Shown here: positions 431-11,864 of the stretch, piece after piece | Layout: the number at the start of each line of letters is the position of its first letter | How positions within the stretch are numbered: the stretch's first letter is position 1 | Source of the DNA: Candidatus Woesearchaeota archaeon | GTDB taxonomy: Archaea; Nanobdellota; Nanobdellia; SCGC-AAA011-G17; UBA489 | Length of the DNA stretch: 12,791 bases | Assembly (NCBI GenBank): GCA_030679025.1 | Contig: JAUXTV010000111.1 | Span: 1 to 12,791, forward strand | Direction of reading: 5' to 3' | Program-made: the position numbers and the translations under genes | The notes under the pieces: generated by a model | What the model was told of the DNA's origin: nothing | The model's input: the letters and a program-made list of their open reading frames with translations, nothing else | Database searches by the model: none

Positions 431-528
431 GCCCAGGTCGCATAACCTGGTATTGCGCAGGATTGCTATAGTCTCTGTAAAGATCCTGTGTCCGTAAGGA
501 TGTGCAGGTTCAAATCCTGCCCTGGGCG
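431..528 (+). tRNA. tRNA-Ser(GCT) with a 14-base intron
   Basis: The acceptor stem GCCCAGG (431-437) pairs fully with CCTGGGC (521-527), with discriminator G528 as in archaeal serine tRNAs. The D arm spans 440-456, with GG at 449-450 (positions 18-19). The anticodon stem is CAGGA (458-462) with TCCTG (484-488), and anticodon GCT is at 465-467. A long variable arm (489-503) contains a TCC/GGA stem with a GTAA loop, which makes this a class II tRNA. The T arm is GCAGG (504-508), loop TTCAAAT, CCTGC (516-520). CCA is not encoded. The intron lies between positions 37 and 38. Removing it leaves 84 bases. The long variable arm and GCT anticodon together fix the serine identity. Confidence 0.93.
469..482 (+). 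other. tRNA-Ser intron at canonical position 37/38
   Basis: The 14-base intron fits a bulge-helix-bulge. The anticodon stem is the outer helix. Exon TTGC (463-466) pairs with intron GTAA (477-480), with one G-U pair. The bulges are TA^T at the 5' site and AG^A at the 3' site. The inner helix is only two pairs (AG/CT) around a three-base loop. Confidence 0.85.
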
Positions 529-541: not shown

Positions 542-547
542 TAGATC

Positions 548-811
548 TCAACATCCAGCTACAGACATAAAACTATCTTTTGGAGCATATTGTCCCGTTG
601 GTCTTGGTGGCTCATATTTACCAGCTTCGGCAATATAAATTTTTAAAAGAGGCGCATTATCTTTTGTTAAGGTTATTTCTCTGTCTCCAACTTGTACAGA
701 ATTACTAGCAGCTCCTGTTGCATTAAATACTTCTACTTTAGCTGCAAGGTCTACAAGCATCCCTGATGTCAAAGACTCAACTACTGATCTTAGTGTTTCT
801 TGTTGTTGCAT
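548..811 (-). CDS. Small hypothetical protein, 87 residues
   Basis: I do not recognise this protein. It has a helical N-terminus (residues 1-30, amphipathic), a beta-like middle with VQVGDREITLTKDN, and a Pro/Gly-rich C-terminus ending in Cys. No signal peptide or membrane segment is visible, so it is probably cytosolic. The start ATG (809-811) has a GGGGGAAG stretch about ten bases upstream and a TATA-like box at 850-860, giving a short leader. The gene lies between two tRNA genes and is transcribed against both. The product is a plausible real protein because frame, ribosome site and promoter agree, but the function is unknown. Confidence 0.6.
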   Translation of the reverse strand: MQQQETLRSVVESLTSGMLVDLAAKVEVFNATGAASNSVQVGDREITLTKDNAPLLKIYIAEAGKYEPPRPTGQYAPKDSFMSVAGC

Positions 812-849
812 TATTCATCTTCCCCCAAGTTTTAGCATTTTTTAGTCGC

Positions 850-860
850 ATATATATTTT
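850..860 (-). promoter_or_regulatory. TATA box of the 548-811 gene
   Basis: On the reverse strand the sequence reads AAAATATATATGC, about 44 bases before the ATG. This predicts a leader of roughly 18 bases that contains the GGGGGAAG site (821-826). Confidence 0.45.
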
Positions 861-878
861 TCCTTTCTTTTAGGAAAC

Positions 879-888
879 CTTTAAAAAC
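879..888 (+). promoter_or_regulatory. TATA box of initiator tRNA-Met
   Basis: The sequence CTTTAAAAAC is centred about 26 bases before the first tRNA base at 910. Confidence 0.55.
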
Positions 889-924
889 GACACTAAACTC
901 AGTCTGTTTAGCGCGGTAGGACAG

Positions 925-953
925 AACTTAGGGTTATACATCCTGGTGTCCAA
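925..953 (+). other. tRNA-Met intron 1 (D loop, 15/16), 29 bases
   Basis: Exon GGAC (919-922) pairs with intron GTCC (948-951) to form the central four-pair helix. The bulges are AG^A (923-925) and AA^T (952-954). The inner helix is imperfect (AC/GT, then TAGG/CCTG with one bulged T and a G-U pair). The outer helix is weak, so this is a relaxed motif. Splicing here joins a complete D loop with GG at 957-958. Confidence 0.82.
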
Positions 954-969
954 TCAGGAGTGTCCGTCG

Positions 970-993
970 AGTCATGTAAAAAATGGCGCGGAA
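970..993 (+). other. tRNA-Met intron 2 (anticodon stem, 29/30), 24 bases
   Basis: Exon CCGT (964-967) pairs with intron GCGG (988-991). The bulges are CG^A (968-970) and AA^G (992-994). The inner helix GTCAT (971-975)/ATGGC (983-987) has five pairs and a seven-base loop. Removal restores the five-pair anticodon stem TCGGG/CCCGA. Confidence 0.87.
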
Positions 994-1017
994 GGCTCAT
1001 AACCCGAAGGTCGGTGG

Positions 1018-1046
1018 AAACAGTTGAGAGATTGGCTGTTGCCGAA
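1018..1046 (+). other. tRNA-Met intron 3 (T arm, 53/54), 29 bases
   Basis: Exon CGGT (1012-1015) pairs with intron GCCG (1041-1044). The bulges are GG^A (1016-1018) and AA^T (1045-1047). The inner helix is AACAG (1019-1023)/CTGTT (1036-1040). Removal places GGTGG directly before TTCAAAT and CCACC, a perfect T arm. Confidence 0.88.
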
Positions 1047-1067
1047 TTCAAATCCACCCCGCGCTAC

Positions 1068-1078
1068 TTTTTTCTTTT
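1068..1078 (+). terminator. T-run after initiator tRNA-Met
   Basis: The run CTTTTTTCTTT starts two bases after the discriminator. Its end touches the stop codon (1077-1079) of the convergent gene. Confidence 0.5.
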
Positions 1079-1429: not shown

Positions 1430-1446
1430 TTTTGGCTGATAGAAAA

Positions 1447-1481
1447 CTATAAAAGAGTAGAGACTTTGTTGGACCTTGAGG
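1447..1481 (+). promoter_or_regulatory. TATA box and ribosome site of the TIM-barrel gene
   Basis: CTATAAAAGAG (1447-1457) predicts transcription from about 1477. GAGG at 1478-1481 lies seven bases before ATG 1489. The two divergent promoters sit within about 90 bases. Confidence 0.55.
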
Positions 1482-1488
1482 AAAAGAG

Positions 1489-3300
1489 ATGGAAACTAGC
1501 AACTATTGGCATTCCCTGGATAGAAGACCTATTAAGGAAGGTGACTTTGCTTTAGATCCTTTAAAATTAGGTATTTCTCATGGTGGTCAAGTTGATGAAG
1601 GACTTAAAGTTAATATTTTTCGTGGTGCGAAGAGTGTTGAGTTAGCATTTTTTGGTACAGGTAAGGGTCAACGAGGACAAGGTGGAACTCCAGAAAGTTA
1701 TGGACATAATGAAAGAGAAGAAATGCGTCAATTGGCAAGGCTTAACGAAGTGGAAATATCAACACATGCTGCTCCAGATTTAGGACCACTCTCTGGATTT
1801 ACAGGACAAGGATTTAGCAGAGAACAAAAAGAACAATCCATGCATGAAATAAGAAGAGCGACAGAATTTGGTGCAGAAGCAGCTGGCGGTGGTGCAGTAG
1901 TAGTACATATTGGTTCCAGACATGGAGAACTACCTAGAGCGCTTGTTGAAGCAGATGACAAGTTCTTAATGTACTCCAAAGAAAAAGAGAGAATGCCAAT
2001 TCAGCTAGTAAATGAAAAAACTGGACAACTAATTAATATTCCTTTAGACCACTCTTTTATCGAATCTTTTGTTAATGACAAAGGCGAGCTTGATAGAAAA
2101 ACTAGAACTTTCAAAGATCTGCTGGAAGATGAAAAAGAACGGGCAAGAAAAGTAAGTCCTACAGAACCTATCAAACTAGCAAATGTTTATGGCTCGTATA
2201 CTAAACATCAGGAAGAACTTATGGAAGGAGAGCGCGATCGATTTTATATTCTAGCAAAAGAAGAAAGAAAACAATTTGAAAAACTTAAAGAGATGACAGA
2301 AGAGTTTGAAGAGATACAAAAAAAAGGACAAAATGTAGATTTCGCGCGAAAGATGCTTAGAAAAGAATTACAAGATAGAGGTATGCTGCCTGGACAAGAA
2401 AGAGGTAAACTCTATGAAGAAGAGGAAGTTAAAGAATATCTAGAAAAACCTGAAACTTTTCTGCAACGCTTAAAAGAAGAAAGAGGGAAAAACTTGAGAG
2501 CTCATGAAGAAATTGCTATCTCCCGTGATCGTGAATTATACCAACTTAAACAACAGACCAGTGAATTGCGGCCTGCACAAGAATATGTTCTAGACGAAAT
2601 CAAAGATAGTTTGGCGAGATCTGCCCTGCATGCCTATGACCTAGAGAAGCAACAGCACTTGGAAAGACCCTTATTCATTTCTCCTGAAAATTGGAGTCCT
2701 GAAAGTTATGGTAGCCATCCCAAAGAGTATAAAGAAATTATTCAACAATCACGAGAAGAAATGGCCAAACGCCTTGTTGAACAAAGAGGCATGAAGCAAG
2801 CAGAAGCGAGAAAAATTGCAGAAGATCATATTCAAGGTACTTTTGATGTTGGCCACTTAAACTTCTGGAAGAAATATTTCACAGGCAGTGATGAACAGTT
2901 CAAAGAATGGATGAGCAAGCAGTTTAGCGAATTATCAAAAAATAACATTATTGGTAATGTGCATATTCATGACAACTTCGGGTACCATGATGAACACTTG
3001 TCTCCTGGTGAAGGTAATGTTCCTATAGAAGAATTTGTACAGAAATTAGAAAAATCTGGTTATACAGGAAAATATATCGCGGAAGTTGGCGGACAAAAAG
3101 AAGGATTTCATCATACTTCCTGGACTGGCGCTATGAATGTACTTAATTCTCCAGTTTATAGAGTTGATAACCAGTATGCACGTTGGAGTGACATTGAAAG
3201 ATCTTACTTCGGCAGTGTACCGCAATCACCTGGATTTTTAGTGGGAGACATGGTTCCTTCCAAAGACTGGACTTTATGGTCTGAAGTTGGCTTAGAGTAG
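1489..3300 (+). CDS. AP endonuclease family 2-like TIM-barrel protein with a large charged insertion
   Basis: The protein has 603 residues and resembles the endonuclease IV / xylose-isomerase-like TIM barrel (AP2Ec) superfamily. The putative metal ligands can be followed in order: H93 (STHAAP), H140 (VVVHIGSRH), E400 (ISPENW), D453 and H456 (FDVGHLNFW), H492/H494 (VHIHDN), D501 and H503 (DEHLSPGEG) and E532 (IAEVGG). This matches the His/Asp/Glu set of the trinuclear zinc site of endonuclease IV. The usual length is about 280 residues. Here residues about 150-390, between the strand ending at H140 and the one carrying E400, form an extra, very charged Glu/Lys/Arg-rich, probably coiled-coil segment. 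About 65 further residues follow the last barrel motif. The pilin-like gene starts seven bases after the stop, suggesting an operon. DNA repair is possible, but a sugar or other phosphoester substrate cannot be excluded. Confidence 0.8.
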   Translation: METSNYWHSLDRRPIKEGDFALDPLKLGISHGGQVDEGLKVNIFRGAKSVELAFFGTGKGQRGQGGTPESYGHNEREEMRQLARLNEVEISTHAAPDLGPLSGFTGQGFSREQKEQSMHEIRRATEFGAEAAGGGAVVVHIGSRHGELPRALVEADDKFLMYSKEKERMPIQLVNEKTGQLINIPLDHSFIESFVNDKGELDRKTRTFKDLLEDEKERARKVSPTEPIKLANVYGSYTKHQEELMEGERDRFYILAKEERKQFEKLKEMTEEFEEIQKKGQNVDFARKMLRKELQDRGMLPGQERGKLYEEEEVKEYLEKPETFLQRLKEERGKNLRAHEEIAISRDRELYQLKQQTSELRPAQEYVLDEIKDSLARSALHAYDLEKQQHLERPLFISPENWSPESYGSHPKEYKEIIQQSREEMAKRLVEQRGMKQAEARKIAEDHIQGTFDVGHLNFWKKYFTGSDEQFKEWMSKQFSELSKNNIIGNVHIHDNFGYHDEHLSPGEGNVPIEEFVQKLEKSGYTGKYIAEVGGQKEGFHHTSWTGAMNVLNSPVYRVDNQYARWSDIERSYFGSVPQSPGFLVGDMVPSKDWTLWSEVGLE

Positions 3301-3307
3301 ATGAGTC

Positions 3308-4042
3308 ATGAAGAAAGGACAACTCAGCACAGAACTCTTGTTTCTTATTGGAGGATTAGTGATTATCTCTCTGGTGCTTTTCTATTATGCCGCAAAACAA
3401 ATCAGTGAGACCCATAAGATCGCGAAAGCAGAAGACGCTGTCAGCCACTTAGTTGAGAAAGTCAATGAATTAGCAAGTTTGAATACAGGCACTAAAGACA
3501 GCATCTGGATTGATATTCCTTCCAAAGTATTAGAAGTCCGCTTATCTGGCAAATATATTTCACTAGTATTATTATTAGGCAATGGAGAACAATATATTAT
3601 GACTAAAGAAACTTTGACTACAGTTGTTGGCACTGTCAATTTTTCCATGGGTCTTCAACAACTCTATGCCACTAAAATTAATGAGACCACTATTAAAATA
3701 GGCACTGAACCCATGCTCTTAGAGATTGTTCCTCCATGTGTATCGGAGAGCGACGCAACAAACAACCCTCCTTTAGTTACTGTTCTTGGCGCTGATTTAA
3801 CTCCTAATTCTGTACCTTTTGCACTTGGTTCTCCTCTCCTTGAATATAGTTATGAAACTGTTGCTACACTTTTTATTCCCTCAGAAAGCATCTACTTAAC
3901 CATAGGAACTTCTCCTGCTGAAATCTCTGTAAGCACACCACCTAATCTTCAAAGCAATAGTCTTTGCTTCCATATTTATCCTGATGCTGAATCTTGCAGC
4001 TGCTTAGGCGGTGAAGAAGGTTCTTCTGGAGATGATAGTTAG
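3308..4042 (+). CDS. Class III signal peptide (type IV pilin-like) protein
   Basis: The N-terminus is MKKGQLSTE followed by a hydrophobic helix (residues about 10-28). This is the archaeal class III signal peptide: a prepilin-type peptidase of the EppA/FlaK group would cut between G4 and Q5, and the helix would then pack in a filament core or anchor the protein. Residues 30-130 are soluble, with alternating strands. The C-terminal part has four cysteines (C179, C216, C228 and C230), which could form disulfides outside the cell, and ends in an acidic Gly/Ser tail. It is probably a surface adhesion or pilus-like subunit. The ATG at 3308 was chosen because it begins exactly at the KKGQ motif. 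A nearby ATG at 3301 is in another frame. Confidence 0.82.
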   Translation: MKKGQLSTELLFLIGGLVIISLVLFYYAAKQISETHKIAKAEDAVSHLVEKVNELASLNTGTKDSIWIDIPSKVLEVRLSGKYISLVLLLGNGEQYIMTKETLTTVVGTVNFSMGLQQLYATKINETTIKIGTEPMLLEIVPPCVSESDATNNPPLVTVLGADLTPNSVPFALGSPLLEYSYETVATLFIPSESIYLTIGTSPAEISVSTPPNLQSNSLCFHIYPDAESCSCLGGEEGSSGDDS

Positions 4043-4053
4043 CTCGACCACAA

Positions 4054-4098
4054 AGTATTTAATAGCTCAACTTCTCCTTATTCTTTAATAGAGGTGAT
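4054..4098 (+). promoter_or_regulatory. TATA box and strong Shine-Dalgarno site for the GTG-started gene
   Basis: AGTATTTAATAGC (4054-4066) is a TATA-like box about 45 bases before the start. GAGGTGAT (4091-4098) matches the archaeal 16S 3' end and stands six bases before GTG 4105, which decides this non-ATG start. Confidence 0.7.
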
Positions 4099-4104
4099 TA
4101 TTTC

Positions 4105-4920
4105 GTGAAGTTTGATGTGCAGAAAAATCCACAGAAGAATGTTTCTCTTTATTTGCAAGAAGATATTACTGTAGCGCGTGATTTTGCGAAAATTATGTAC
4201 AGAGAATTTGGGAAATTTTTATCAGGCATAGTTCTTTTTGGCTCTGCAACTTCCAACAACTCTTCACCAAAGCGAGATATTGATATTTTAATTATCTTAG
4301 ATGATATTCGCATTAGATTTACAGAAGAATTAGTTGAAACTTATCGTATCTTGACTGAAAGAGCCATAGCACAAGTAGATCCCAAAAGATTACATATCCA
4401 ATCTATGCGCTTAACTGCTTTTTGGGAATATGTGCGCGCAGGAGACCCAGTCGCGATTAACATTTTACGCTCTGGTGTAGCATTAGTAGATACTGGATTT
4501 TTTGATCCTTTACAAACTCTCTTAGACCAAGGAAGAATACGACCAAGTGATGAAGCTATCTGGACTTATTTTACTTTAGCACCTGCTTCCTTACATCGCG
4601 CTGATCAGCATTTATTGACGGCTATGGTTGATCTTTATTGGGCTGCTGTTGACTCTGCACATGCTGCTTTAATGACTGTCGGGGAAATTCCGCCTTCACC
4701 AGATCATGTAGCTGACATGCTGGACAAAAAACTCTATGCAGAAAGACATATTCGTCATCGTGCTGCCAAGACTATGCGCCATTTGTATACTATCTTCAAG
4801 AAAATTGTGCACAGAGACATTAAGTCTGTATCTGGCAAGGATTTTGACCATTATAGAAAAGAAGCACAAGCTTTTGTAGATGAGATGAAACTTTTTATTG
4901 AGCAAAGAAAACTCAATTAA
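4105..4920 (+). CDS. Nucleotidyltransferase (MNT) fused to a HEPN-like domain
   Basis: The protein has 271 residues and starts at GTG. The N-terminal half carries the polymerase-beta type motif GIVLFGSATSNNSSPKRDIDILII. It has G46-S47 and the two metal-binding aspartates D58 and D60, so the active site looks intact. Residues about 150-265 are all-helical with AMVDLYWAAVDSAHAAL, the pattern of a HEPN/KNTase C-terminal domain. I see no convincing R-x4-6-H RNase motif in it. Fused MNT-HEPN proteins occur widely in archaea, and some related pairs are toxin-antitoxin systems in which the MNT partner modifies the HEPN toxin. Whether this fused form is a toxin, a regulator or a small-molecule nucleotidyltransferase is open. 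Its stop codon overlaps that of the convergent NADH dehydrogenase gene in the palindrome TTAA. Confidence 0.8.
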   Translation: MKFDVQKNPQKNVSLYLQEDITVARDFAKIMYREFGKFLSGIVLFGSATSNNSSPKRDIDILIILDDIRIRFTEELVETYRILTERAIAQVDPKRLHIQSMRLTAFWEYVRAGDPVAINILRSGVALVDTGFFDPLQTLLDQGRIRPSDEAIWTYFTLAPASLHRADQHLLTAMVDLYWAAVDSAHAALMTVGEIPPSPDHVADMLDKKLYAERHIRHRAAKTMRHLYTIFKKIVHRDIKSVSGKDFDHYRKEAQAFVDEMKLFIEQRKLN

Positions 4921-6152
4921 ATTTGTGTAGTGTCTCTTGGGAAGAAGAGATTTAATGTCCAATCATAAGCTACTTGCAATTTATTTCTCAAGCCTACTAA
5001 TTTTGTGAGGTAAATAGTTCTCCAAAGCCACCAGGCAAAAAATCCCTTGAACCTTACTCCGTGAATATCAGCAACTGCGAAGCGCTTTCCCACAGATACT
5101 AAAGTTCCTGAAGATTTGAAAGAGAATACTTGCAGAGGTTGATTGTTTATTTCAGAGATGATATTCTTTGCTACTATTCTTGCTTCTTTTACTGCTACTT
5201 GTGCTAATGCAGGCACTTGTTTTCTATCATGAGGATTAATTAGATAAGCACAATCACCTAGGGCATAGATATTCTTCTGATTCTGCACACGAAGATGTTT
5301 ATCGACTACGAAAAAACCCTTCTCATTAGTAATCTTCGGTTTTGTTTGTATACTGGTTGGCTTAACACCTGATGTCCAGATGACAGTATTTGTTTTGAGT
5401 TTCTGCTTTTTATTTATTTCAATTCCTTCTGTTGTTACTTTCGTGACAAGAGCATTGGTTATTACCTTGACTCTTTCTTTTGCCAATTTTTTTAAGGTTT
5501 GCTGCCGTGAATGTGGATGCATGAAAGGAATAATTTCTGGATTGCTTTGCACTAAGTAAATTTTTCTTTCATATCTCTTTAACTGAGGATAGTTTTTTTG
5601 TAAGTTTTGATCTATAAACTCTGCTAATTCTCCTGCCAGCTCTACACCTGTAGGACCTGCACCAACGATAACAAAAGTCAGATTTGGCTCATTTGCATGC
5701 AAAGTGTGCATTGCGCTTGAGGATTCTAATCTATCGAGAATATGGTTTCGAATTTTCACTGCATCGTCTAAATCTTTCAGAGGAAGTGCATATTCTTTTG
5801 CACCTGGAACATTGTAAAAATTATTTTCAGCACCTAGAGCTATAACTAAAGTATCATAGTTTATTATCTTTTTATCTGTAATAATAGTTTTTTTCTCTAC
5901 TTGAATTTCCTTGACTGTACAACGTAGGAAAGTAAATCTGGGATGACGAATAATTTCTCGAATAGGCTGAACAATATTACTTCTATTTAGACCTCCAGTA
6001 GCAACTTCATGCAACATGGGAGCAAATAAGAAATAATTAGTTTTACTGATCAGCATAATTTCTAGAGGATCGCTGTTTTTTTTTTTCTTAAGAAGATTAA
6101 TCGCAGTGTACACACAAGCAAATCCAGCACCAAGAATAACTATGCGTTTCAT
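4917..6152 (-). CDS. ndh: Type II NADH dehydrogenase (NDH-2) family flavoprotein
   Basis: The protein has 411 residues, normal for NDH-2. The first dinucleotide-binding motif is VILGAGFA (residues 5-12, FAD) and the second is VIVGAGPTGVELAGELAE (161-178, NAD(P)H). IYALGDCA (295-302) is the second FAD contact, followed by PALAQVAVKEAR (314-325), which corresponds to the AQxAxQ quinone-site motif with E in place of the last Q. The C-terminus has the WWLWRTIYLTKLVGLRN pattern and a hydrophobic LNLFF patch that fits membrane-surface attachment. The enzyme would transfer electrons from NADH to a quinone or other acceptor without pumping protons. It follows an unknown helical gene by three bases and shares that promoter. 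A weak AGGT lies just before ATG. The natural acceptor in this organism is unknown. Confidence 0.88.
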   Translation of the reverse strand: MKRIVILGAGFACVYTAINLLKKKKNSDPLEIMLISKTNYFLFAPMLHEVATGGLNRSNIVQPIREIIRHPRFTFLRCTVKEIQVEKKTIITDKKIINYDTLVIALGAENNFYNVPGAKEYALPLKDLDDAVKIRNHILDRLESSSAMHTLHANEPNLTFVIVGAGPTGVELAGELAEFIDQNLQKNYPQLKRYERKIYLVQSNPEIIPFMHPHSRQQTLKKLAKERVKVITNALVTKVTTEGIEINKKQKLKTNTVIWTSGVKPTSIQTKPKITNEKGFFVVDKHLRVQNQKNIYALGDCAYLINPHDRKQVPALAQVAVKEARIVAKNIISEINNQPLQVFSFKSSGTLVSVGKRFAVADIHGVRFKGFFAWWLWRTIYLTKLVGLRNKLQVAYDWTLNLFFPRDTTQI

Positions 6153-6155
6153 TGT

Positions 6156-6560
6156 TTATACCTGAGTTGCAAAGAAAATTTCTAACGTTGCTGCCTGTAA
6201 GAGACGTTCTTCAATGTCTACTAACTGCAATGCTGCTGTTTTTCCCATATCTACTTCTGCATATGCTACTTGTACGACTCTTTCATAACCATTACAAGAT
6301 ATAACGGGATTACCTTGGATGAATTTAGCAACTATTCTAGACACATAAGCTACATTAGCTGCGCCCCTATCTTGACAATGTTTAGTTGCAAGTCTAATAT
6401 ACAATGCCTTGAGATGGGTGATTTCTGCACTTACCTCTGCTTTAGAAGCATCCTGTGTTAACAATTGTCTAATTTTTTGTACTTGTGGAATAACTTCTTG
6501 TTCGAAGAAAACACTTGCTGCGGGATATAACTGTCTAACCACCCCTTCTAAAGAATCCAT
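6156..6560 (-). CDS. Hypothetical helical protein, first gene of the NDH-2 operon
   Basis: I do not recognise this 134-residue protein. It appears all-helical, with four to five helices (about 2-35, 42-62, 68-82, 90-132), has cysteines in KHCQDRG and VISCNGY, and has no membrane segment or signal peptide. Its ATG (6558-6560) lies about 26 bases from a TATA box, so the transcript is probably leaderless. Its stop lies three bases before the NDH-2 start, so the two genes are cotranscribed. Co-expression suggests a link to the flavoprotein, but no function can be read from the sequence. Confidence 0.7.
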   Translation of the reverse strand: MDSLEGVVRQLYPAASVFFEQEVIPQVQKIRQLLTQDASKAEVSAEITHLKALYIRLATKHCQDRGAANVAYVSRIVAKFIQGNPVISCNGYERVVQVAYAEVDMGKTAALQLVDIEERLLQAATLEIFFATQV

Positions 6561-6580
6561 GTAAAAAAAAGAGCATACTT

Positions 6581-6590
6581 TCTATATAAG
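6581..6590 (-). promoter_or_regulatory. TATA box of the NDH-2 operon
   Basis: The reverse strand reads CTTATATAGA, centred about 26 bases before ATG 6560, which implies a leaderless message. Confidence 0.6.
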
Positions 6591-6600
6591 TATTATTGTG

Positions 6601-6640
6601 ATAAAAAATAAAGAAGAAAAAAGAGAAAAAAAGAAAAAAT
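6601..6640 (-). terminator. Long T-rich terminator after the 6645-7142 gene
   Basis: On the reverse strand this stretch is a series of T-runs broken by single C or A bases, starting just after the stop codon at 6645. Poly-T tracts of this kind end archaeal transcripts. The next promoter (6581-6590) begins right after it. Confidence 0.6.
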
Positions 6641-6644
6641 AAGC

Positions 6645-7142
6645 TTAAGGTGTAGCTGGAGCTGGCGTTGGTGCAGCAGGAGCGTTAATAATTGCTCTTA
6701 CAGCTTCCATGCCTTTACTTAATCTGTATTGATCGAGTGTTACACTAGAAGGGCATGTGTTTTCGTCTTTAGCTACTATATCTATAAGGTACTGGTGTAC
6801 TATAGCTCCACGAATCTTTTGAGCAGTATCTGCAACTAGCGAATCACGTACTTCTGGATCCATGTTTTCTCCATCTGCTTCTAATTTATTAACTAATTGA
6901 TCAATTCCCTGGAAAAAACTACGGAATAATCTACCAGCATAAGGTTGGTTAGTAACTCCGCCAAGACCAGCAGTGATAGCTTTGCTAGCTTCAGTTTTAT
7001 AAGCAGTAGCACCATCAATTGGTTTGCCAGTTTCAGCAGCTGTACGTAGTGCTGTATAAGCGCTGTCCATGTTTCTAGTCATAGCTGCAGCAGTTGTATA
7101 ATCAATGCCAGTTGGTGCTGGGGGTGTAGTTGTACTTGTCAT
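6645..7142 (-). CDS. Ala/Thr/Pro-rich hypothetical protein, 165 residues
   Basis: I do not recognise this protein. Residues 1-13 are Thr/Pro-rich and 153-165 are a Pro/Ala tail (APAAPTPAPATP), probably disordered. The part between looks helical (residues 16-37, 50-60, 70-90, 97-125, 135-152), with one cysteine, C130. No signal peptide or membrane helix is seen. The ATG is preceded by a very strong AAGGAGG site (7154-7160). The message probably starts with a 40-base hairpin, and the gene ends at a long T-rich terminator. These signals suggest an independently transcribed, well-translated protein. The function is unknown. Confidence 0.7.
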   Translation of the reverse strand: MTSTTTPPAPTGIDYTTAAAMTRNMDSAYTALRTAAETGKPIDGATAYKTEASKAITAGLGGVTNQPYAGRLFRSFFQGIDQLVNKLEADGENMDPEVRDSLVADTAQKIRGAIVHQYLIDIVAKDENTCPSSVTLDQYRLSKGMEAVRAIINAPAAPTPAPATP

Positions 7143-7172
7143 TGTTGTTATTTCCTCCTTAAATGAATATAA

Positions 7173-7212
7173 GTTAAAGTGCCTTTATCCTAAGATAAAT
7201 GCTCGCTTTAAC
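7173..7212 (-). promoter_or_regulatory. Hairpin/inverted repeat in the leader of the Ala/Thr/Pro-rich gene
   Basis: GTTAAAG (7173-7179) and CTTTAAC (7206-7212) form the outer arms, and TTTATC (7184-7189) and GATAAA (7194-7199) the inner arms, around a four-base loop. Two further G-C pairs can form between them. The TATA box at 7233-7244 would start transcription near 7212, so the RNA would begin with this hairpin. It could be an mRNA stabiliser, a translation control element or a regulator-binding palindrome. Confidence 0.6.
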
Positions 7213-7232
7213 ACTATATACACAGCAGTTCT

Positions 7233-7244
7233 CCTATATAAATG
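7233..7244 (-). promoter_or_regulatory. TATA box of the Ala/Thr/Pro-rich gene (second candidate at 7213-7222)
   Basis: The reverse strand reads CATTTATATAGG here and TGTATATAGT at 7213-7222. The upstream box would start RNA at about 7212, the downstream one near 7191 inside the inverted repeat. Apart from these promoters, the hairpin and the promoter at 7391, I see nothing in the stretch 7143-7423. Confidence 0.5.
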
Positions 7245-7390
7245 TTTCGTTTTGTATTAACTACCTAGTAACAACATATTATCCTAGAAAGCAGTATTTT
7301 CTCTTTACTGGATCTTCTTCTTAAGCATTGCAACAAACACTACTTTTTATGACCTTTGATTGGTTTAATGGTTTCCGAACAGAAACGTAA

Positions 7391-7402
7391 GTTATTTATA
7401 GG
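7391..7402 (+). promoter_or_regulatory. TATA box of the Met-rich membrane protein gene
   Basis: GTTATTTATAGG is centred about 27 bases before ATG 7424. No ribosome site is visible, so the message is probably leaderless. Confidence 0.55.
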
Positions 7403-7423
7403 CATCTTTTCAAAATTTATTTT

Positions 7424-8107
7424 ATGAGCTTCAACCATTTCATAAAAGAGTTAAATGGCAATCGTGTGGAAGGAGAACTTCTCAAATCAGTTTTCTACTC
7501 TTTACTTACTTCTTTCGCTATTTTGGCCCTACTTTATTTTTTTAAATTCAGATTTATTGAAAATTTTACAGAAACTTATGGACTTTACTTGTTTTTAGCA
7601 GCTCTTAGTTATGCATTATTAACACCTTTGATGCATCAAGTCCATGCATATAAACAATTTTCCTGCATGTCAGGGATGATGATAGGCATGACTGCGGGTA
7701 TGATTGCTGGATTTTTAGCTAGTTTCTATGTGGGAGCAACCAATGGCATGTTTTACGGCAGTGTCTTTGGTATGATTATAGGCATATCTTTGGGAATTTG
7801 GATGGGCTCCTGTTGCGGAGTCATGGGTTTTTTAGAAGGCATTATGGCTGGATTTATGGGAGGCCTCATGGGTGGCATGACTGCAATTATGTTACTCAAT
7901 GACCATCTTCAGACAATGGCTATTATTGTATTTCTTGTTGGTGGAGCCATATTAGTAGCGCTAAATTATATGATTTATTATGAAATGAAAGAAGCTGAAC
8001 GACAAAGACAAGGACAACATCTGTTGATTATTACAATTACTGCAGCATTGACTTTGGCAACGACATGGCTCATGATCTTTGGACCGAGAAGTGCACTCTT
8101 CAGTTAA
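7424..8107 (+). CDS. Met/Gly-rich polytopic membrane protein, probably metal-related
   Basis: The protein has 227 residues and about seven predicted membrane segments (about 22-41, 53-73, 80-103, 106-130, 131-156, 163-185, 200-219). Residues 80-156 are remarkable: GxxxG-spaced glycines alternate with methionines (CMSGMMIGMTAGMIAG, then GIMAGFMGGLMGGMTAIM), with a Cys pair at C130-C131 and C81 at the start. From memory this resembles proteins found beside cupredoxins in Firmicute copper loci, but I cannot verify that. Thioether and thiol side chains inside membrane helices suit Cu(I) or Ag(I). The cupredoxin-like gene follows after 37 bases and the CPLC membrane gene after that. Export, uptake or sensing cannot be separated from sequence alone. 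Confidence 0.7.
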   Translation: MSFNHFIKELNGNRVEGELLKSVFYSLLTSFAILALLYFFKFRFIENFTETYGLYLFLAALSYALLTPLMHQVHAYKQFSCMSGMMIGMTAGMIAGFLASFYVGATNGMFYGSVFGMIIGISLGIWMGSCCGVMGFLEGIMAGFMGGLMGGMTAIMLLNDHLQTMAIIVFLVGGAILVALNYMIYYEMKEAERQRQGQHLLIITITAALTLATTWLMIFGPRSALFS

Positions 8108-8114
8108 TGAGAAA

Positions 8115-8125
8115 CTTTATATAGC
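8115..8125 (+). promoter_or_regulatory. TATA box of the cupredoxin-like gene
   Basis: CTTTATATAGC is centred about 25 bases before ATG 8145. This supports that start over an earlier one at 8079, and implies an additional, leaderless transcript. Confidence 0.6.
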
Positions 8126-8144
8126 ACAAAAAAAAATAACTCTT

Positions 8145-8516
8145 ATGAAAAACACAACCATTGTTGCATTAATAGGTATTCTTGTTATAGGCGGATCATT
8201 GTTTTTGTATATGAGCAATACAGCAGCGCAGACAAACACTGTTGTTGGCAGCGGCGATGTACAAAGAATTACTCTCAGCGAGAAGAACGCTAATTATTTT
8301 CCGCAAGTCTTGAATGTCAAAGCAGGACAACCTGTTGAACTTACCTTAGACTCTAGCGTTAGTGGATGCTATAGATCTTTTACTATCAGACAACTAGGTG
8401 TTTCTCAATATGCGCGAACGCCAAAAGAGACTATTAAGTTCACTGTTCCACAACCTGGCAGCTATAGATTCTCCTGCAGTATGGGCATGGGCACTGGAAC
8501 ACTTATAGCTACATGA
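8145..8516 (+). CDS. Membrane-anchored cupredoxin-like protein with a Cys/Met site
   Basis: The protein has 123 residues. An N-terminal hydrophobic segment (residues about 5-23) is a signal anchor, and the rest would face outside. The core has the cupredoxin layout: FPQVLNVKAGQPVELTLDS, then GCYRSFTIRQLG, then PGSYRFSCSMGMGTGTLIAT. Candidate copper ligands are C75, C111, M113 and M115. The usual first His is replaced by Cys, as in the cupredoxin family tied to copper resistance. The upstream ATG at 8079 was rejected because a TATA box lies inside that extension and the residues before M23 do not look like a signal peptide. The stop overlaps the next ATG (ATGA at 8513-8516), so translation is coupled. 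Confidence 0.82.
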   Translation: MKNTTIVALIGILVIGGSLFLYMSNTAAQTNTVVGSGDVQRITLSEKNANYFPQVLNVKAGQPVELTLDSSVSGCYRSFTIRQLGVSQYARTPKETIKFTVPQPGSYRFSCSMGMGTGTLIAT

Positions 8517-8971
8517 AACTCAATGATGTTTTTCAGAAGCCTTATAGGCTCTGGTTTTTTTGTATATTCTTTCTTTATCTTCTCTTGAATGTTCTCTTTA
8601 GCGGATTTTACAACACGATTCCCTTGATTATTCAATATGCTGCTACTGTGGATTGGTTTTCCTTAACACTCTCAGTCTTATTCGCACTTGCCATTGGTTT
8701 CTTTATAGCAGTCAATAGCATCTTACTTTTTATTCGCTATAAGCAACGAAAGAACTGTAGCAAGGCTGGCACTTTGACTGGTGTGGGCACTGTTGGCGGA
8801 TTTATTACTGGAGTCTGTCCTTTATGTATTTCTGGATTATTTCCTTTACTGTTTAGTTTTTTTGGCATCTCTCTTTCTTTAGGGAACTTGCCTTTCAAAG
8901 GGATTGAAGTACAGATACTTACTCTCTTGGTTCTTGTGTTGAGTTTCTTTTTACTTACGCGTAGAACTTGA
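8513..8971 (+). CDS. Small membrane protein with CPLC motif
   Basis: The protein has 152 residues and about four membrane segments (about 13-30, 50-75, 90-122, 130-148). The third contains GTVGGFITGVCPLCISGLFPLLFSFFG, with C102 and C105 in a CxxC motif inside or at the edge of the membrane. A short basic loop (RYKQRKNCSK) precedes it. A four-base overlap with the cupredoxin-like gene points to a joint function. The CxxC pair could bind a soft metal or take part in thiol exchange with the cupredoxin site. I do not know a named family for it. Confidence 0.72.
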   Translation: MKLNDVFQKPYRLWFFCIFFLYLLLNVLFSGFYNTIPLIIQYAATVDWFSLTLSVLFALAIGFFIAVNSILLFIRYKQRKNCSKAGTLTGVGTVGGFITGVCPLCISGLFPLLFSFFGISLSLGNLPFKGIEVQILTLLVLVLSFFLLTRRT

Positions 8972-9006
8972 GTATTGTTATTAGCATCGAGAATTCAAAA
9001 TTCAAT

Positions 9007-9219
9007 TTATAGCAAATTATATGCTTGATTACACTCATCTATCGTGCGGTATTTGTATGGGTCTCTTATATTATCACTTTCTTCTCTTTCACAACTAGAT
9101 GTATTTTCATTATATACATAGCCTACATAACGTCTTCCATCATTGATAAATTTCTCAGTTGTACATCCTACAAGAAGTAAGGCTAGAATGACTATTACCA
9201 CAATTACCACCTCTTTCAT
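9007..9219 (-). CDS. Small lipoprotein-like secreted protein, 70 residues
   Basis: The N-terminus is a short charged start followed by a hydrophobic stretch and LLVGC (C19), which fits a lipobox cut before Cys. The remaining 51 residues are polar, with two more cysteines (C43 and C63) that could form one disulfide, and the pattern YVYNENTSSCE...YRTIDECNQAY. A TATA box lies about 27 bases before the ATG, so the gene is probably expressed without a leader. It is transcribed opposite to its neighbours. The function is unknown, and small size keeps the confidence moderate. Confidence 0.6.
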   Translation of the reverse strand: MKEVVIVVIVILALLLVGCTTEKFINDGRRYVGYVYNENTSSCEREESDNIRDPYKYRTIDECNQAYNLL

Positions 9220-9240
9220 AGTTGAATAATTAATTAAGGT

Positions 9241-9252
9241 TATATATAAATT
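9241..9252 (-). promoter_or_regulatory. TATA box of the lipoprotein-like gene
   Basis: The reverse strand reads AATTTATATATA, centred about 27 bases before ATG 9219. Confidence 0.55.
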
Positions 9253-9316
9253 TCGTTATAATTCCATTCTCTTCCTCTCTCTTTGTCAGGATTTAAGTAG
9301 AATAGTATAGCTGCAA

Positions 9317-9359: not shown

Positions 9360-10055
9360 ATGACTTTCTTTTCCTGGGAATTGATTACTGCTTTAAGCCT
9401 TGGATTTATTCTGGGATTGAAACATGCCTTAGATGCAGATCATGTCCTTGCTGTGACAGCCATCACCAGTAAAACAAAAAATATCAAAACTTCTTCCTTG
9501 ATCGGATCTTACTGGGGCTTTGGCCATGCACTTACTCTTCTTCTTGTTGGTATTATCTTACTTGCTTTCAAAATATCCTTGTCTCAACGTGTAGCTCTTT
9601 TTTTTGAATTTCTTGTGGGCATTTTTTTAGTCTTTTTAGGTGTTAAAGTTCTTTGGGATCTTTTTCATGACAAGCTTCATGCACATCAACACACTCATAA
9701 TTCTGTACCTCATACACATTTTCATACGCATGACCATTCTCTTGCTCACAAACATTATCATACTTCTTTTTTTATGGGCATGATTCATGGTCTAGCAGGC
9801 AGCGCTGCATTGACTCTGCTGGTGCTTGCATCCACTCCGACATTTTTTCAAGGCATTTCCTTTATTTTTGTCTTTGGCAGCGGAGCAATTCTAGGTATGC
9901 TGCTTCTTAGTATGGTTCTTGCCTTGCCTTTTCTCTTTGTCCAGCGTTTTACCAGACTCTTAAAAGGATTACAATTTTTAGCAGGAAGCCTTAGCATTCT
10001 TTTAGGCATCTCTATAATCTACAGCTTTTATTATCTACAAAAGTTCTTCTTGTAG
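9360..10055 (+). CDS. Nickel/cobalt transporter, UreH/NiCoT type
   Basis: The protein has 231 residues and about six membrane segments. The signature GLKHALDADHV (residues 19-29) contains the HAxDADH metal-selectivity motif of Ni2+/Co2+ permeases, and GMIHGLAGSAAL (140-151) is the second conserved helix of the UreH-like branch. Between them, residues 103-134 form a loop with 13 histidines, which could bind metal and concentrate it at the pore. The gene lies 50 bases before the hydrogenase small subunit, whose enzyme needs nickel, so Ni2+ uptake for hydrogenase is the simplest role. The hydrogenase genes have their own TATA box. Cobalt, or a broader metal range, remains possible. Confidence 0.87.
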   Translation: MTFFSWELITALSLGFILGLKHALDADHVLAVTAITSKTKNIKTSSLIGSYWGFGHALTLLLVGIILLAFKISLSQRVALFFEFLVGIFLVFLGVKVLWDLFHDKLHAHQHTHNSVPHTHFHTHDHSLAHKHYHTSFFMGMIHGLAGSAALTLLVLASTPTFFQGISFIFVFGSGAILGMLLLSMVLALPFLFVQRFTRLLKGLQFLAGSLSILLGISIIYSFYYLQKFFL

Positions 10056-10075
10056 TATCCAAAAGTAAACGTATT

Positions 10076-10087
10076 CTTTATATACTT
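10076..10087 (+). promoter_or_regulatory. TATA box of the hydrogenase genes
   Basis: CTTTATATACTT is centred about 25 bases before ATG 10106. No ribosome site is present (the start follows a T-run), so a leaderless message is likely. Confidence 0.6.
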
Positions 10088-10105
10088 CCAGATTTTTTAT
10101 TTTTT

Positions 10106-10597
10106 ATGCAGAAAAAGAGGCAGAAGCAATTAAATATAGGCTGGTTTTCCTTTACTTGCTGTGAAGATAGCACTATTATGTTTACTGAACTTCTGAATGA
10201 TCATTACCAAGAATGGTTTAAGCTTCTTAAGTTTAAACATGCAAAAATTCTCCAGAGCAAAAACACTCTCAAAGGCATAGATGTAGCATTTGTTGAGGGA
10301 GCAATCACTTCAACAGCCATGAAGAAAGAACTCTTAGAGATCAGAAAGAACTGCAAGAAGCTAGTCGCCATAGGAAGCTGCGCTGTTCAAGGCATGCCTT
10401 CCGCGCAAAGAAATTATTTCGATGAGAAAACCAAGCAGGAAATTCAATTTCTCATAGACCGCTTCAAGCAATGCAAAAAAGTTTCTAATCTTAAAGAATT
10501 AGTAAAAGTAGACTATGAGGTGCCTGGATGTCCTATGGATGAAAAGATATTCCTAGATATTGTGAACAAATGCCTCAAGGAGTTTAAAGTTGCATAA
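10106..10597 (+). CDS. [NiFe]-hydrogenase small subunit, short form with NuoB-like adjacent cysteines
   Basis: The protein has 163 residues. It carries the proximal cluster region of [NiFe]-hydrogenase small subunits: FSFTCCEDS (C18, C19), IDVAFVEGAI, GSCAVQG (C92) and VDYEVPGCP (C142). In group 3 hydrogenases the first pair is CxxC. Here the two cysteines are adjacent, as in complex I subunit NuoB, and position 21 is Asp. Cysteines 18, 19, 92 and 142 make a complete set for one [4Fe-4S] cluster. The C-terminal part that holds further clusters in many small subunits (about 260 residues total) is absent. A Tat signal is also missing, so the enzyme is cytosolic. The last bases overlap the large subunit gene by eight. 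Confidence 0.85.
   Translation: MQKKRQKQLNIGWFSFTCCEDSTIMFTELLNDHYQEWFKLLKFKHAKILQSKNTLKGIDVAFVEGAITSTAMKKELLEIRKNCKKLVAIGSCAVQGMPSAQRNYFDEKTKQEIQFLIDRFKQCKKVSNLKELVKVDYEVPGCPMDEKIFLDIVNKCLKEFKVA
10577..10592 (+). promoter_or_regulatory. Ribosome site that fixes a TTG start for the large subunit
   Basis: AAGGAG (10577-10582) lies seven bases before TTG 10590-10592. The site is inside the small subunit gene, so translation of the two subunits is probably coupled. No ATG lies near the conserved N-terminus in this frame. Confidence 0.7.
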
Positions 10598-11864
10598 ATC
10601 AGACATCACGATTAAAAATCTGACTAAATTAGAAGGTCATGCAGATCTAGAAATCAAAATCAGAAACAATAAAGTCAAGGATGTCAAGTTCAAGATTACA
10701 GAAAATAAACGCTTCTTCACACAGGCTATCAGAGGAAAACCTGTTGTTGGATTACCTCAGCATGTCTCAAGAATTTGCGGGACTTGCAGCATAGCACATT
10801 TGATCTGTTGTATTGAAGCCATAGAAAAGACCTTAGGCATACGACCAACGGCACAGACCATCATGCTTAGAAAACTAGCGATGTATGGCTTAATGATTAG
10901 AGATCATGCTTTGCACCTCTATATTTTTGCACTTCCTGATGAACTTGGCAAAGACTCTATTTTAGAACTCAATGAGTCACATCACGACCTTATTCATGAC
11001 GCTTTTCATGTCAAGGCTGTCGGCAATCATCTTTCTATTTTAGTCGCTGGCAGATCAGTGCATGCACCTTATCCTGTTGTTGGAGGATTTACTCATTTTC
11101 CAGAACGTGTAGAGATAGATAAGGTCATAACAGAACTCAAAGAGATAAGACCCATCATCCTGCGTTTAATAGATCTTTTTTCCAAGACTAAATTCAAATT
11201 TATTCGAAAAACTAATTTTGTCGCGCTTGCTGCTGAGGAGTTTGGATTTCTAGAAGGATGCATCAAAAGCACACAAGGTTATTGCATAGAGGAAGAAGAT
11301 TATTTCAAACATCTCAAGCAAGTAGTTATTCCTTACTCAGAGGCTATTGGCTATAGATTTCATGAAGGAGATTATATGGTTGGGGCCTTAGCAAGAATAA
11401 ATCTCAGCAAAGACTTACTGCATGAGCATACAAAACGAGACGCAGCGAACTACCTTAAAATCTTTCCTTCCTACAATGTCTTCCATAATAATCTAGCACA
11501 AGCAATTGAAATTTTACACAGTCTAGATCACGCTTTAGAACTTCTTGACAAATATACTTTTCACAAGGAAGATCCAGAACCTATTCCAGCTAGAGCAGGA
11601 GAAGGCGTTGGCGTAGTTGAAGCACCCAGAGGAACACTCTACTACAGGCTTAAGATTGACAAGAACAGCATTGTGAAAAATGGCACGATCATAGTTCCTA
11701 CGCAACAGAATCAGATCAACATGCGCAACGATATCTTTGATTTAGTACAGCAAAATATCAACAAACCAAGACATTGGATAGAACATACTTGTGAAACTCT
11801 AATCAGAGCTTATGATCCCTGCATGAGCTGCGCAACTCACTTCTTAAGAGTCAAGTGGACATAG
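10590..11864 (+). CDS. [NiFe]-hydrogenase large (catalytic) subunit
   Basis: The protein has 424 residues and starts at TTG. It carries the whole nickel site: RICGTCSIAH (C63, C66, H70) and DPCMSCATH (C411, C414, H417). KLEGHADLEI (13-22) is the conserved REGH-like N-terminus with E15 near the active site, and GEGVGVVEAPRG is the conserved stretch before the C-terminal half. It matches cytosolic group 3-type subunits in length and motif wording (RICGTCSxAH, DPCxSCATH), so reversible H2 oxidation or proton reduction with a soluble carrier is likely. After H417 only seven residues (FLRVKWT) remain. These would be removed by the maturation protease encoded on the opposite strand, whose gene overlaps this tail by 28 bases. 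The exact subgroup cannot be fixed by eye. Confidence 0.9.
   Translation: MHKSDITIKNLTKLEGHADLEIKIRNNKVKDVKFKITENKRFFTQAIRGKPVVGLPQHVSRICGTCSIAHLICCIEAIEKTLGIRPTAQTIMLRKLAMYGLMIRDHALHLYIFALPDELGKDSILELNESHHDLIHDAFHVKAVGNHLSILVAGRSVHAPYPVVGGFTHFPERVEIDKVITELKEIRPIILRLIDLFSKTKFKFIRKTNFVALAAEEFGFLEGCIKSTQGYCIEEEDYFKHLKQVVIPYSEAIGYRFHEGDYMVGALARINLSKDLLHEHTKRDAANYLKIFPSYNVFHNNLAQAIEILHSLDHALELLDKYTFHKEDPEPIPARAGEGVGVVEAPRGTLYYRLKIDKNSIVKNGTIIVPTQQNQINMRNDIFDLVQQNINKPRHWIEHTCETLIRAYDPCMSCATHFLRVKWT

Follow-up and report, generated by a model that had tools for sequence, protein, structure and literature searches.

Non-canonical bulge-helix-bulge (BHB) introns in the tRNAs of Thermoproteales have reportedly been described by Sugahara 2008 and Fujishima 2010. 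The initiator tRNA gene considered here, which lies in a 12,791-nucleotide stretch of DNA (the window), and its counterparts across an order of DPANN archaea carry introns that resemble these in being short, in having 3-nt bulges and a 4-bp central helix, in occurring outside position 37/38 and several to a gene, and apparently in their rapid gain, as far as the available text of the sources describes the Thermoproteales case (PMC8450103, PMC4090602, PMC4033280). They differ in their DPANN host, in reaching up to five per gene, and in occurring repeatedly in the initiator; moreover, the Thermoproteales splicing endonuclease (EndA) is an (alpha beta)2 enzyme with a Crenarchaea-specific loop in the accessible accounts, whereas here the enzyme is seemingly a lone alpha subunit without that loop. 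Known non-canonical sites listed in the available part of PMC4090602 include 29/30 and 53/54, and 15/16 goes unnamed in a list that ends in "etc."; a preliminary description of this DNA had regarded 53/54 as rare, which the published list contradicts. The maximum for a Thermoproteales tRNA is given as three introns in the accessible text of PMC4033280, and "two or three" per tRNA gene are mentioned in that of PMC6379350.

Other described systems share some of these features, again judged from partly available sources. Nanoarchaeum equitans is a DPANN archaeon with an interrupted initiator tRNA and the nearest EndA catalytic subunit (PMC3218864, PMC3655853), but its initiator is put together in trans at 37/38 from two separate genes and its EndA is (alpha beta)2, whereas the window gene has cis introns elsewhere and no beta subunit is seen. 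The initiator of Thermofilum pendens likewise has multiple interruptions (at 59/60 and 37/38; PMC3218864), but that gene is permuted, whereas the order of parts here is linear and the introns are removable. The ARMAN archaea, which have the epsilon2 EndA, are likewise ultrasmall, and their introns are not limited to the strict BHB (PMC12397907, PMC6379350); their enzyme is one protein of ~390 aa with three units and an ASL, in contrast to the ~190-aa single unit found here. In Caldiarchaeum tRNA-Thr, intron number at one locus varies among close relatives (PMC3293823), with one versus two introns within a population and a mobile element proposed as the cause; here all five sites differ between two species while the mature tRNA is identical. 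Judged against the literature available in part, several non-canonical BHB introns in one gene are already known, while the lineage, the number, the turnover, and the pairing with this enzyme look new. The open-access literature, as far as it was covered, described no multi-intron tRNAs in Woesearchaeota and no archaeal tRNA gene with more than three introns.

The initiator tRNA gene and its sister locus

The initiator tRNA-Met(CAU) gene, read directly from the window, spans positions 910-1066 of the + strand and is 157 nt long before splicing. Its parts and immediate surroundings are given below, with reference to the sister species G002.

431..528, + strand: tRNA-Ser(GCU) with an intron at the canonical position, upstream of the initiator (ARAGORN; kept in G002)
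873..890, + strand: putative archaeal promoter GGAAACCTTTAAAAACGA, presumably a BRE/TATA-like motif (read directly; conserved in G002)
910..924, + strand: exon 1, tRNA positions 1-15 (acceptor 5' strand, 8-9, D-stem 5' strand, A14 and G15)
925..953, + strand: intron 1, site 15/16, 29 nt (no counterpart at the G002 junction)
954..969, + strand: exon 2, positions 16-29
970..993, + strand: intron 2, site 29/30, 24 nt (no counterpart in G002)
994..1017, + strand: exon 3, positions 30-53, with the CAU anticodon at 998-1000
1018..1046, + strand: intron 3, site 53/54, 29 nt (no counterpart in G002)
1047..1066, + strand: exon 4 (T-loop, T-stem 3' strand, acceptor 3' strand, discriminator A73)
1068..1078, + strand: T-rich stretch TTTTTTCTTTT, a likely transcription terminator (read directly; conserved in G002)

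The TATA-like part of the putative promoter is ~26 nt upstream of the presumably transcribed gene. Splicing out the three introns yields a 75-mer in which all 21 cloverleaf pairs form. ARAGORN names this 75-mer tRNA-Met(cat) and calls nothing on the unspliced gene (910-1066). Archaeal initiator tRNA-Met is marked by a CAU anticodon, an A1:U72 pair, and three G:C pairs that end the anticodon stem. The 75-mer has the acceptor stem AGCGCGG/CCGCGCU, with A1:U72, and the anticodon stem UCGGG/CCCGA around CAU, and is thus identified as the initiator; the elongator tRNA-Met of the genome is encoded elsewhere (L006). With a profile caller, the three introns are placed at a score of 94.8; it leaves all three boundaries unchanged, at 83.6, when its BHB term is switched off. 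Sliding any of the boundaries by one base gives a different product.

The boundaries are also fixed to the nucleotide, with no need for a motif, by G002, a species of the same genus with 96% protein identity and 94.2% DNA identity in the downstream gene. Its initiator gene, at the same locus on contig JAGVZA010000014.1 (Candidatus Woesearchaeota RIFCSPHIGHO2_02_FULL_36_21), encodes an identical mature 75-mer and lacks all three window introns exactly at these junctions. The preliminary description thus proved accurate in its coordinates, sites, and lengths, in naming an initiator that becomes a perfect 75-base tRNA on intron removal, and in suspecting a DPANN-like host. In place of the window introns, G002 has a 23-nt intron at 37/38 and a 24-nt intron at 43/44 (the latter placed one base earlier when BHB information is withheld), so that five sites differ between the two species. 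The flanking TTTAAAAA box and T run are conserved. This difference at five sites around the same mature tRNA points to fast gain and loss of introns in an essential gene: the pair offers a clean picture of a long-standing question, and the group, if our reading is true, a natural system for watching tRNA introns come and go.

An assembly or binning artefact, or a chance resemblance, might be suspected in a MAG of short contigs (233 contigs, 83% complete, 3.9% contamination). However, 7.9 kb of the window (1436-9315) aligns at 87% to JAGVZA010000014.1, as does the tRNA stretch; the best caller score among 25 dinucleotide shuffles of the 270-base locus is -16.5, against 94.8 for the locus itself; and the same intron sites recur in other families. 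We rejected this explanation on the G002 locus and the shuffles, and give it almost no weight.

The two species also differ right beside their conserved tRNA genes. Window positions 544-868, between the two tRNA genes, have no alignment with G002, and on the downstream side of the initiator G002 is longer by ~420 bases (at window ~1453; L103 5529-5947). G002 retains the intron of the neighboring tRNA-Ser(GCU), in contrast to the initiator introns.

Initiator introns across the order

Our census sampled 80 order-level genomes, including that of the window. The DNA pattern AGGAGTNNNCGN{5,35}CYCATA, whose gap limit works against intron-rich genes, had matches in 50 of the 80; those in G011, G063, and G071 were dropped as false (caller score below -19, 8-12 pairs), and initiators in G008, G014, and G027 were added from other searches. 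Initiators were thereby located in 50 genomes, with none located in 30, and the mature forms of all 50 have 20 or 21 pairs. Intron calling in relatives covered initiator genes only. Although the preliminary description had considered three introns in an initiator beside DPANN-like genes unusual, introns in this gene are common among the relatives located, being present in 35 of the 50 (71 introns called, 52 of them non-canonical). The number per gene is none in 15, one in 16, two in nine, three in five, four in three (G020, G058, and G062), and five in two: G068, at 15/16, 29/30, 37/38, 44/45, and 59/60, and G073, at 7/8, 29/30, 37/38, 43/44, and 59/60. If these introns are removed as proposed below, we would know of no single tRNA gene more interrupted. 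No protein can be started in the absence of an initiator tRNA, and still these relatives carry up to five introns in its gene.

Introns occur at 37/38 in 19 genes, 53/54 in 14, 29/30 in 11, 15/16 in 10, and 43/44 in seven, and more rarely at 59/60 (four genes), 4/5 and 7/8 (two each), and 28/29 and 44/45 (one each). The window's own sites are accordingly shared, with 15/16 also occupied in nine relatives (including G005, of the same family), 29/30 in 10, and 53/54 in 13. Site sets vary within genera g1, g2, g7, g24, and g26. Compared by eye, the 15/16 introns of G000 and G005 seem to agree only at the ends where pairing forces them to, and so may be independent gains. Calling without BHB information gives the same boundaries for 62 of the 71 introns; the other nine shift or fuse with a neighbor (one each in G002, G009, G049, and G062, two in G026, and three in G073).

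These numbers bear on whether the finding is wholly ordinary, that is, whether these are Thermoproteales-like introns merely uncatalogued in a DPANN group, with nothing unusual about their number or enzyme. Sites 29/30 and 53/54 and up to three introns per gene are already known from the accessible parts of PMC4090602 and PMC4033280, and ARAGORN reports an intron in 11 of the 23 other tRNA matches of the window genome. Against this stand the five introns called in two relatives (five in G068 and four in G073 without BHB information) and four in three others, which exceed the maximum of three in the available text of PMC4033280, as well as a single-gene EndA without the crenarchaeal loop. We consider so ordinary an explanation possible, but somewhat unlikely.

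A different alternative is that the window gene is a decaying pseudogene with accumulated insertions, the initiator being supplied by another gene. With a genome that is 83% complete and in 233 contigs, a second initiator could sit in the missing part. The preliminary description had named a second, intact copy as the observation that would count against it, and there is none among the 23 Rfam tRNA matches of the genome. With an initiator covariance model, by which intact initiators score 94-107 bits, none of the 35 intron-bearing genomes has an intact second copy: 18 have one match each, the intron-bearing gene itself, at no more than 90 bits, and 17 have no match at E<=1e-14. Of the 35, 17 are rated 94-99% complete. 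In the window itself, the four exons are intact, all 21 pairs form, and the flanks are conserved, and G002 keeps an identical mature sequence though its insertions sit elsewhere. The copy searches and the G002 locus led us to reject the pseudogene reading, which we regard as very improbable. A bare anticodon-loop scan of the genome was uninformative (165 matches, versus 195 for the reversed pattern).

Such genes are readily overlooked. At its gathering threshold, Rfam reports only the neighbor at 431-528 in the window; on a 221-base stretch with E up to 10, its tRNA model is silent, and three matches to other families fall far below their cut-offs, so a covariance match cannot serve as proof of this gene. 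When five sequences, either spliced or intron-less, are used to build an initiator model, the window yields only a broken partial match of 23.9 bits, and the order-specific model at E<=1e-14, a threshold that excludes elongators, misses 17 of the 35 intron-bearing genes. Genomes of this kind can thus seem to have no initiator tRNA.

Several cases in the survey stand apart. The initiator of G013:C6 (L229) has a single 98-nt insertion at 37/38, ~4x the mean length of the others. G007 has two initiators of equal score (G007:C5:32-106 and G007:C8:26822-26896), both near contig ends and possibly one locus assembled twice; their downstream flanks are slightly different. A tRNA-Ala(GGC) gene of the window genome (L016 1501-1590; G000:C137:5471-5560) has by eye an apparent insertion in the variable region, perhaps a further non-canonical intron.

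Structure and proposed removal of the introns

All three window introns have a central helix of 4 pairs with inner pairing. At 15/16, the central helix is GGAC/GUCC, with bulges AG^A and AA^U, three inner pairs, and no outer pair; at 29/30, it is CCGU/GCGG, with bulges CG^A and AA^G, five inner pairs, and two outer pairs; and at 53/54, CGGU/GCCG, with bulges GG^A and AA^U, nine inner pairs, and no outer pair. The four-pair helix and the inner pairing therefore agree with the preliminary description, but of the two bulges it assigned to every site, the second is unclosed at 15/16 and 53/54, and the lack of an outer helix there makes these relaxed motifs. In a free-energy model, the 29/30 core is within the minimum-energy structure, while the cores at 15/16 and 53/54 form only as minor conformers, with central pair probabilities of 0.03 and 0.04, each ~2 kcal/mol above the minimum, and all three together are at 5.1. 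This folding result counts against our reading.

Comparison across the order supports the same cores. Outside 37/38, 33 of 55 introns with boundaries placed without BHB information show a full BHB core, defined as 4 central pairs plus 3 or more inner pairs, versus 0-2 of 55 after both ends are moved by 1-4 bases. All 4 inner-helix pairs form in 13 of 14 introns at 53/54, versus 25% when the helix halves are paired with those of other genomes; the corresponding values are 8 of 11 versus 8% at 29/30 and 6 of 10 versus 4% at 15/16, and at 43/44 the helix is complete in 3 of 5 versus 10%. By this sequence comparison, the inner helix is covarying at 53/54, 29/30, and 15/16. An outer helix of at least 2 pairs is found at 37/38 in 19 of 19 introns and at 29/30 in 11 of 11, at 53/54 in 0 of 14 and at 43/44 in 0 of 7, and at 15/16 in 7 of 10, the window's own intron being one of those without. 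In a fixed register, all four central pairs form in only 6 of the 19 introns at 37/38.

We consider it likely that this is a working gene, and probably the only initiator of its Woesearchaeota host, whose precursor would fold into three BHB introns to be cut by a single-gene alpha-type EndA and ligated. The last nucleotides of each intron (GUCC, GCGG, and GCCG) would take the place of a tRNA stem strand by pairing with the 5' exon, and a hairpin within the intron would stack on the resulting 4-bp central helix. In EndA cleavage, the cut follows the second base of the bulge, and the single-gene alpha-type enzyme would make such cuts here, after which a ligase would join the four exons into a standard initiator. 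Because each central helix draws on its own exon stretch (10-13, 24-27, and 48-51), no fixed order of intron removal would be needed. If the enzyme reads the central helix and bulges and not the tRNA body, many positions in the gene could host introns, and with one promiscuous enzyme introns might come and go at little cost.

The splicing endonuclease

The EndA of the window genome is an alpha-type protein of 195 aa (~190) with N and C domains. Its invariant Y131, H141, and K172 align with the known catalytic residues, and a C-terminal Trp192, present in every one of 11 relatives, aligns with Trp in the N. equitans, Aeropyrum pernix, and Methanopyrus kandleri enzymes, whereas Methanocaldococcus jannaschii has Tyr. 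The nearest solved sequence is 3iey_A, the catalytic subunit of the N. equitans heterotetramer (E 4.4e-35), and the model fits 1a79 over 171 residues. One EndA gene is found in 20 of 21 genomes, with none in G049, and no paralog that could be a beta subunit appears at E<=10 in the 21. One gene, a two-domain subunit of ~180 aa, and Tyr/His/Lys together form the alpha4-type gene pattern of M. jannaschii, which the window EndA shares, and the enzyme may be a homotetramer with no partner.

The preliminary description had called for an endonuclease that accepts relaxed motifs and suggested an epsilon2 or heterotetrameric one. The search returned neither the epsilon2 enzyme, a ~390-aa fusion of three units, nor a beta subunit like that of N. 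equitans: the open frame is 200 aa in the window genome, 171-241 aa in the 38 further matches listed, and 101 aa in a broken G002 copy. The Crenarchaea-specific loop, named with Lys44 of the alpha subunit in the available text of PMC6379350, is absent as well, since A. pernix residues 41-50 (including K44) face a 10-residue gap.

In the accessible part of PMC6379350, alpha4 EndA is narrow in specificity, and efficient removal of relaxed introns is confined to the (alpha beta)2 and epsilon2 types. A lone alpha subunit is therefore a poor fit with relaxed sites, which in turn argue against a narrow, strict-BHB specificity of the window EndA. The introns may be real and spliced while EndA is partnered by a diverged beta subunit that the profiles missed. 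The two would then form a heterotetramer of the usual broad specificity, like those of Nanoarchaeum and Crenarchaeota. The relationship to 3iey_A and the shared Trp192 fit such a partner. The profile does detect NEQ261 at 2e-16, but not the partner chains of the A. pernix and Pyrobaculum aerophilum entries, so a crenarchaeal-type beta would be missed; a beta gene could also sit in the missing part of the 83% complete window genome. We judge this a serious possibility, though not a probable one.

Alternatively, with no outer helix at 15/16 and 53/54, a lone-alpha EndA may handle relaxed motifs, against the published rule. We regard it as evenly poised whether this order breaks the match of intron type to enzyme type, with a loop-less single-gene alpha EndA removing relaxed introns at many sites and a sole, essential initiator carrying as many as five introns, which turn over within a genus around an identical mature tRNA. 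Such an EndA would combine an N. equitans-like catalytic domain and C-terminal Trp with M. jannaschii-like architecture, and its apparent pairing with these introns makes the proposed co-evolution of enzyme and intron directly testable in vitro.

EndA was not found in G011 (100% complete), G033 (92%), or G049 (89%); the initiators of G033 and G049 have two introns each. The G002 copy (G002:C13:58959-59413) is broken into two pieces that overlap but are read in different frames, with one internal TGA, owing to a frameshift or an error of assembly, though the G002 initiator carries introns. Elsewhere in the window, genes like those for the small and large subunits of NiFe-hydrogenase (9360-11864) lie next to a nickel transporter gene (NicO), and a type II NADH dehydrogenase gene is at 4917-6152, a respiratory-looking set for a DPANN archaeon.
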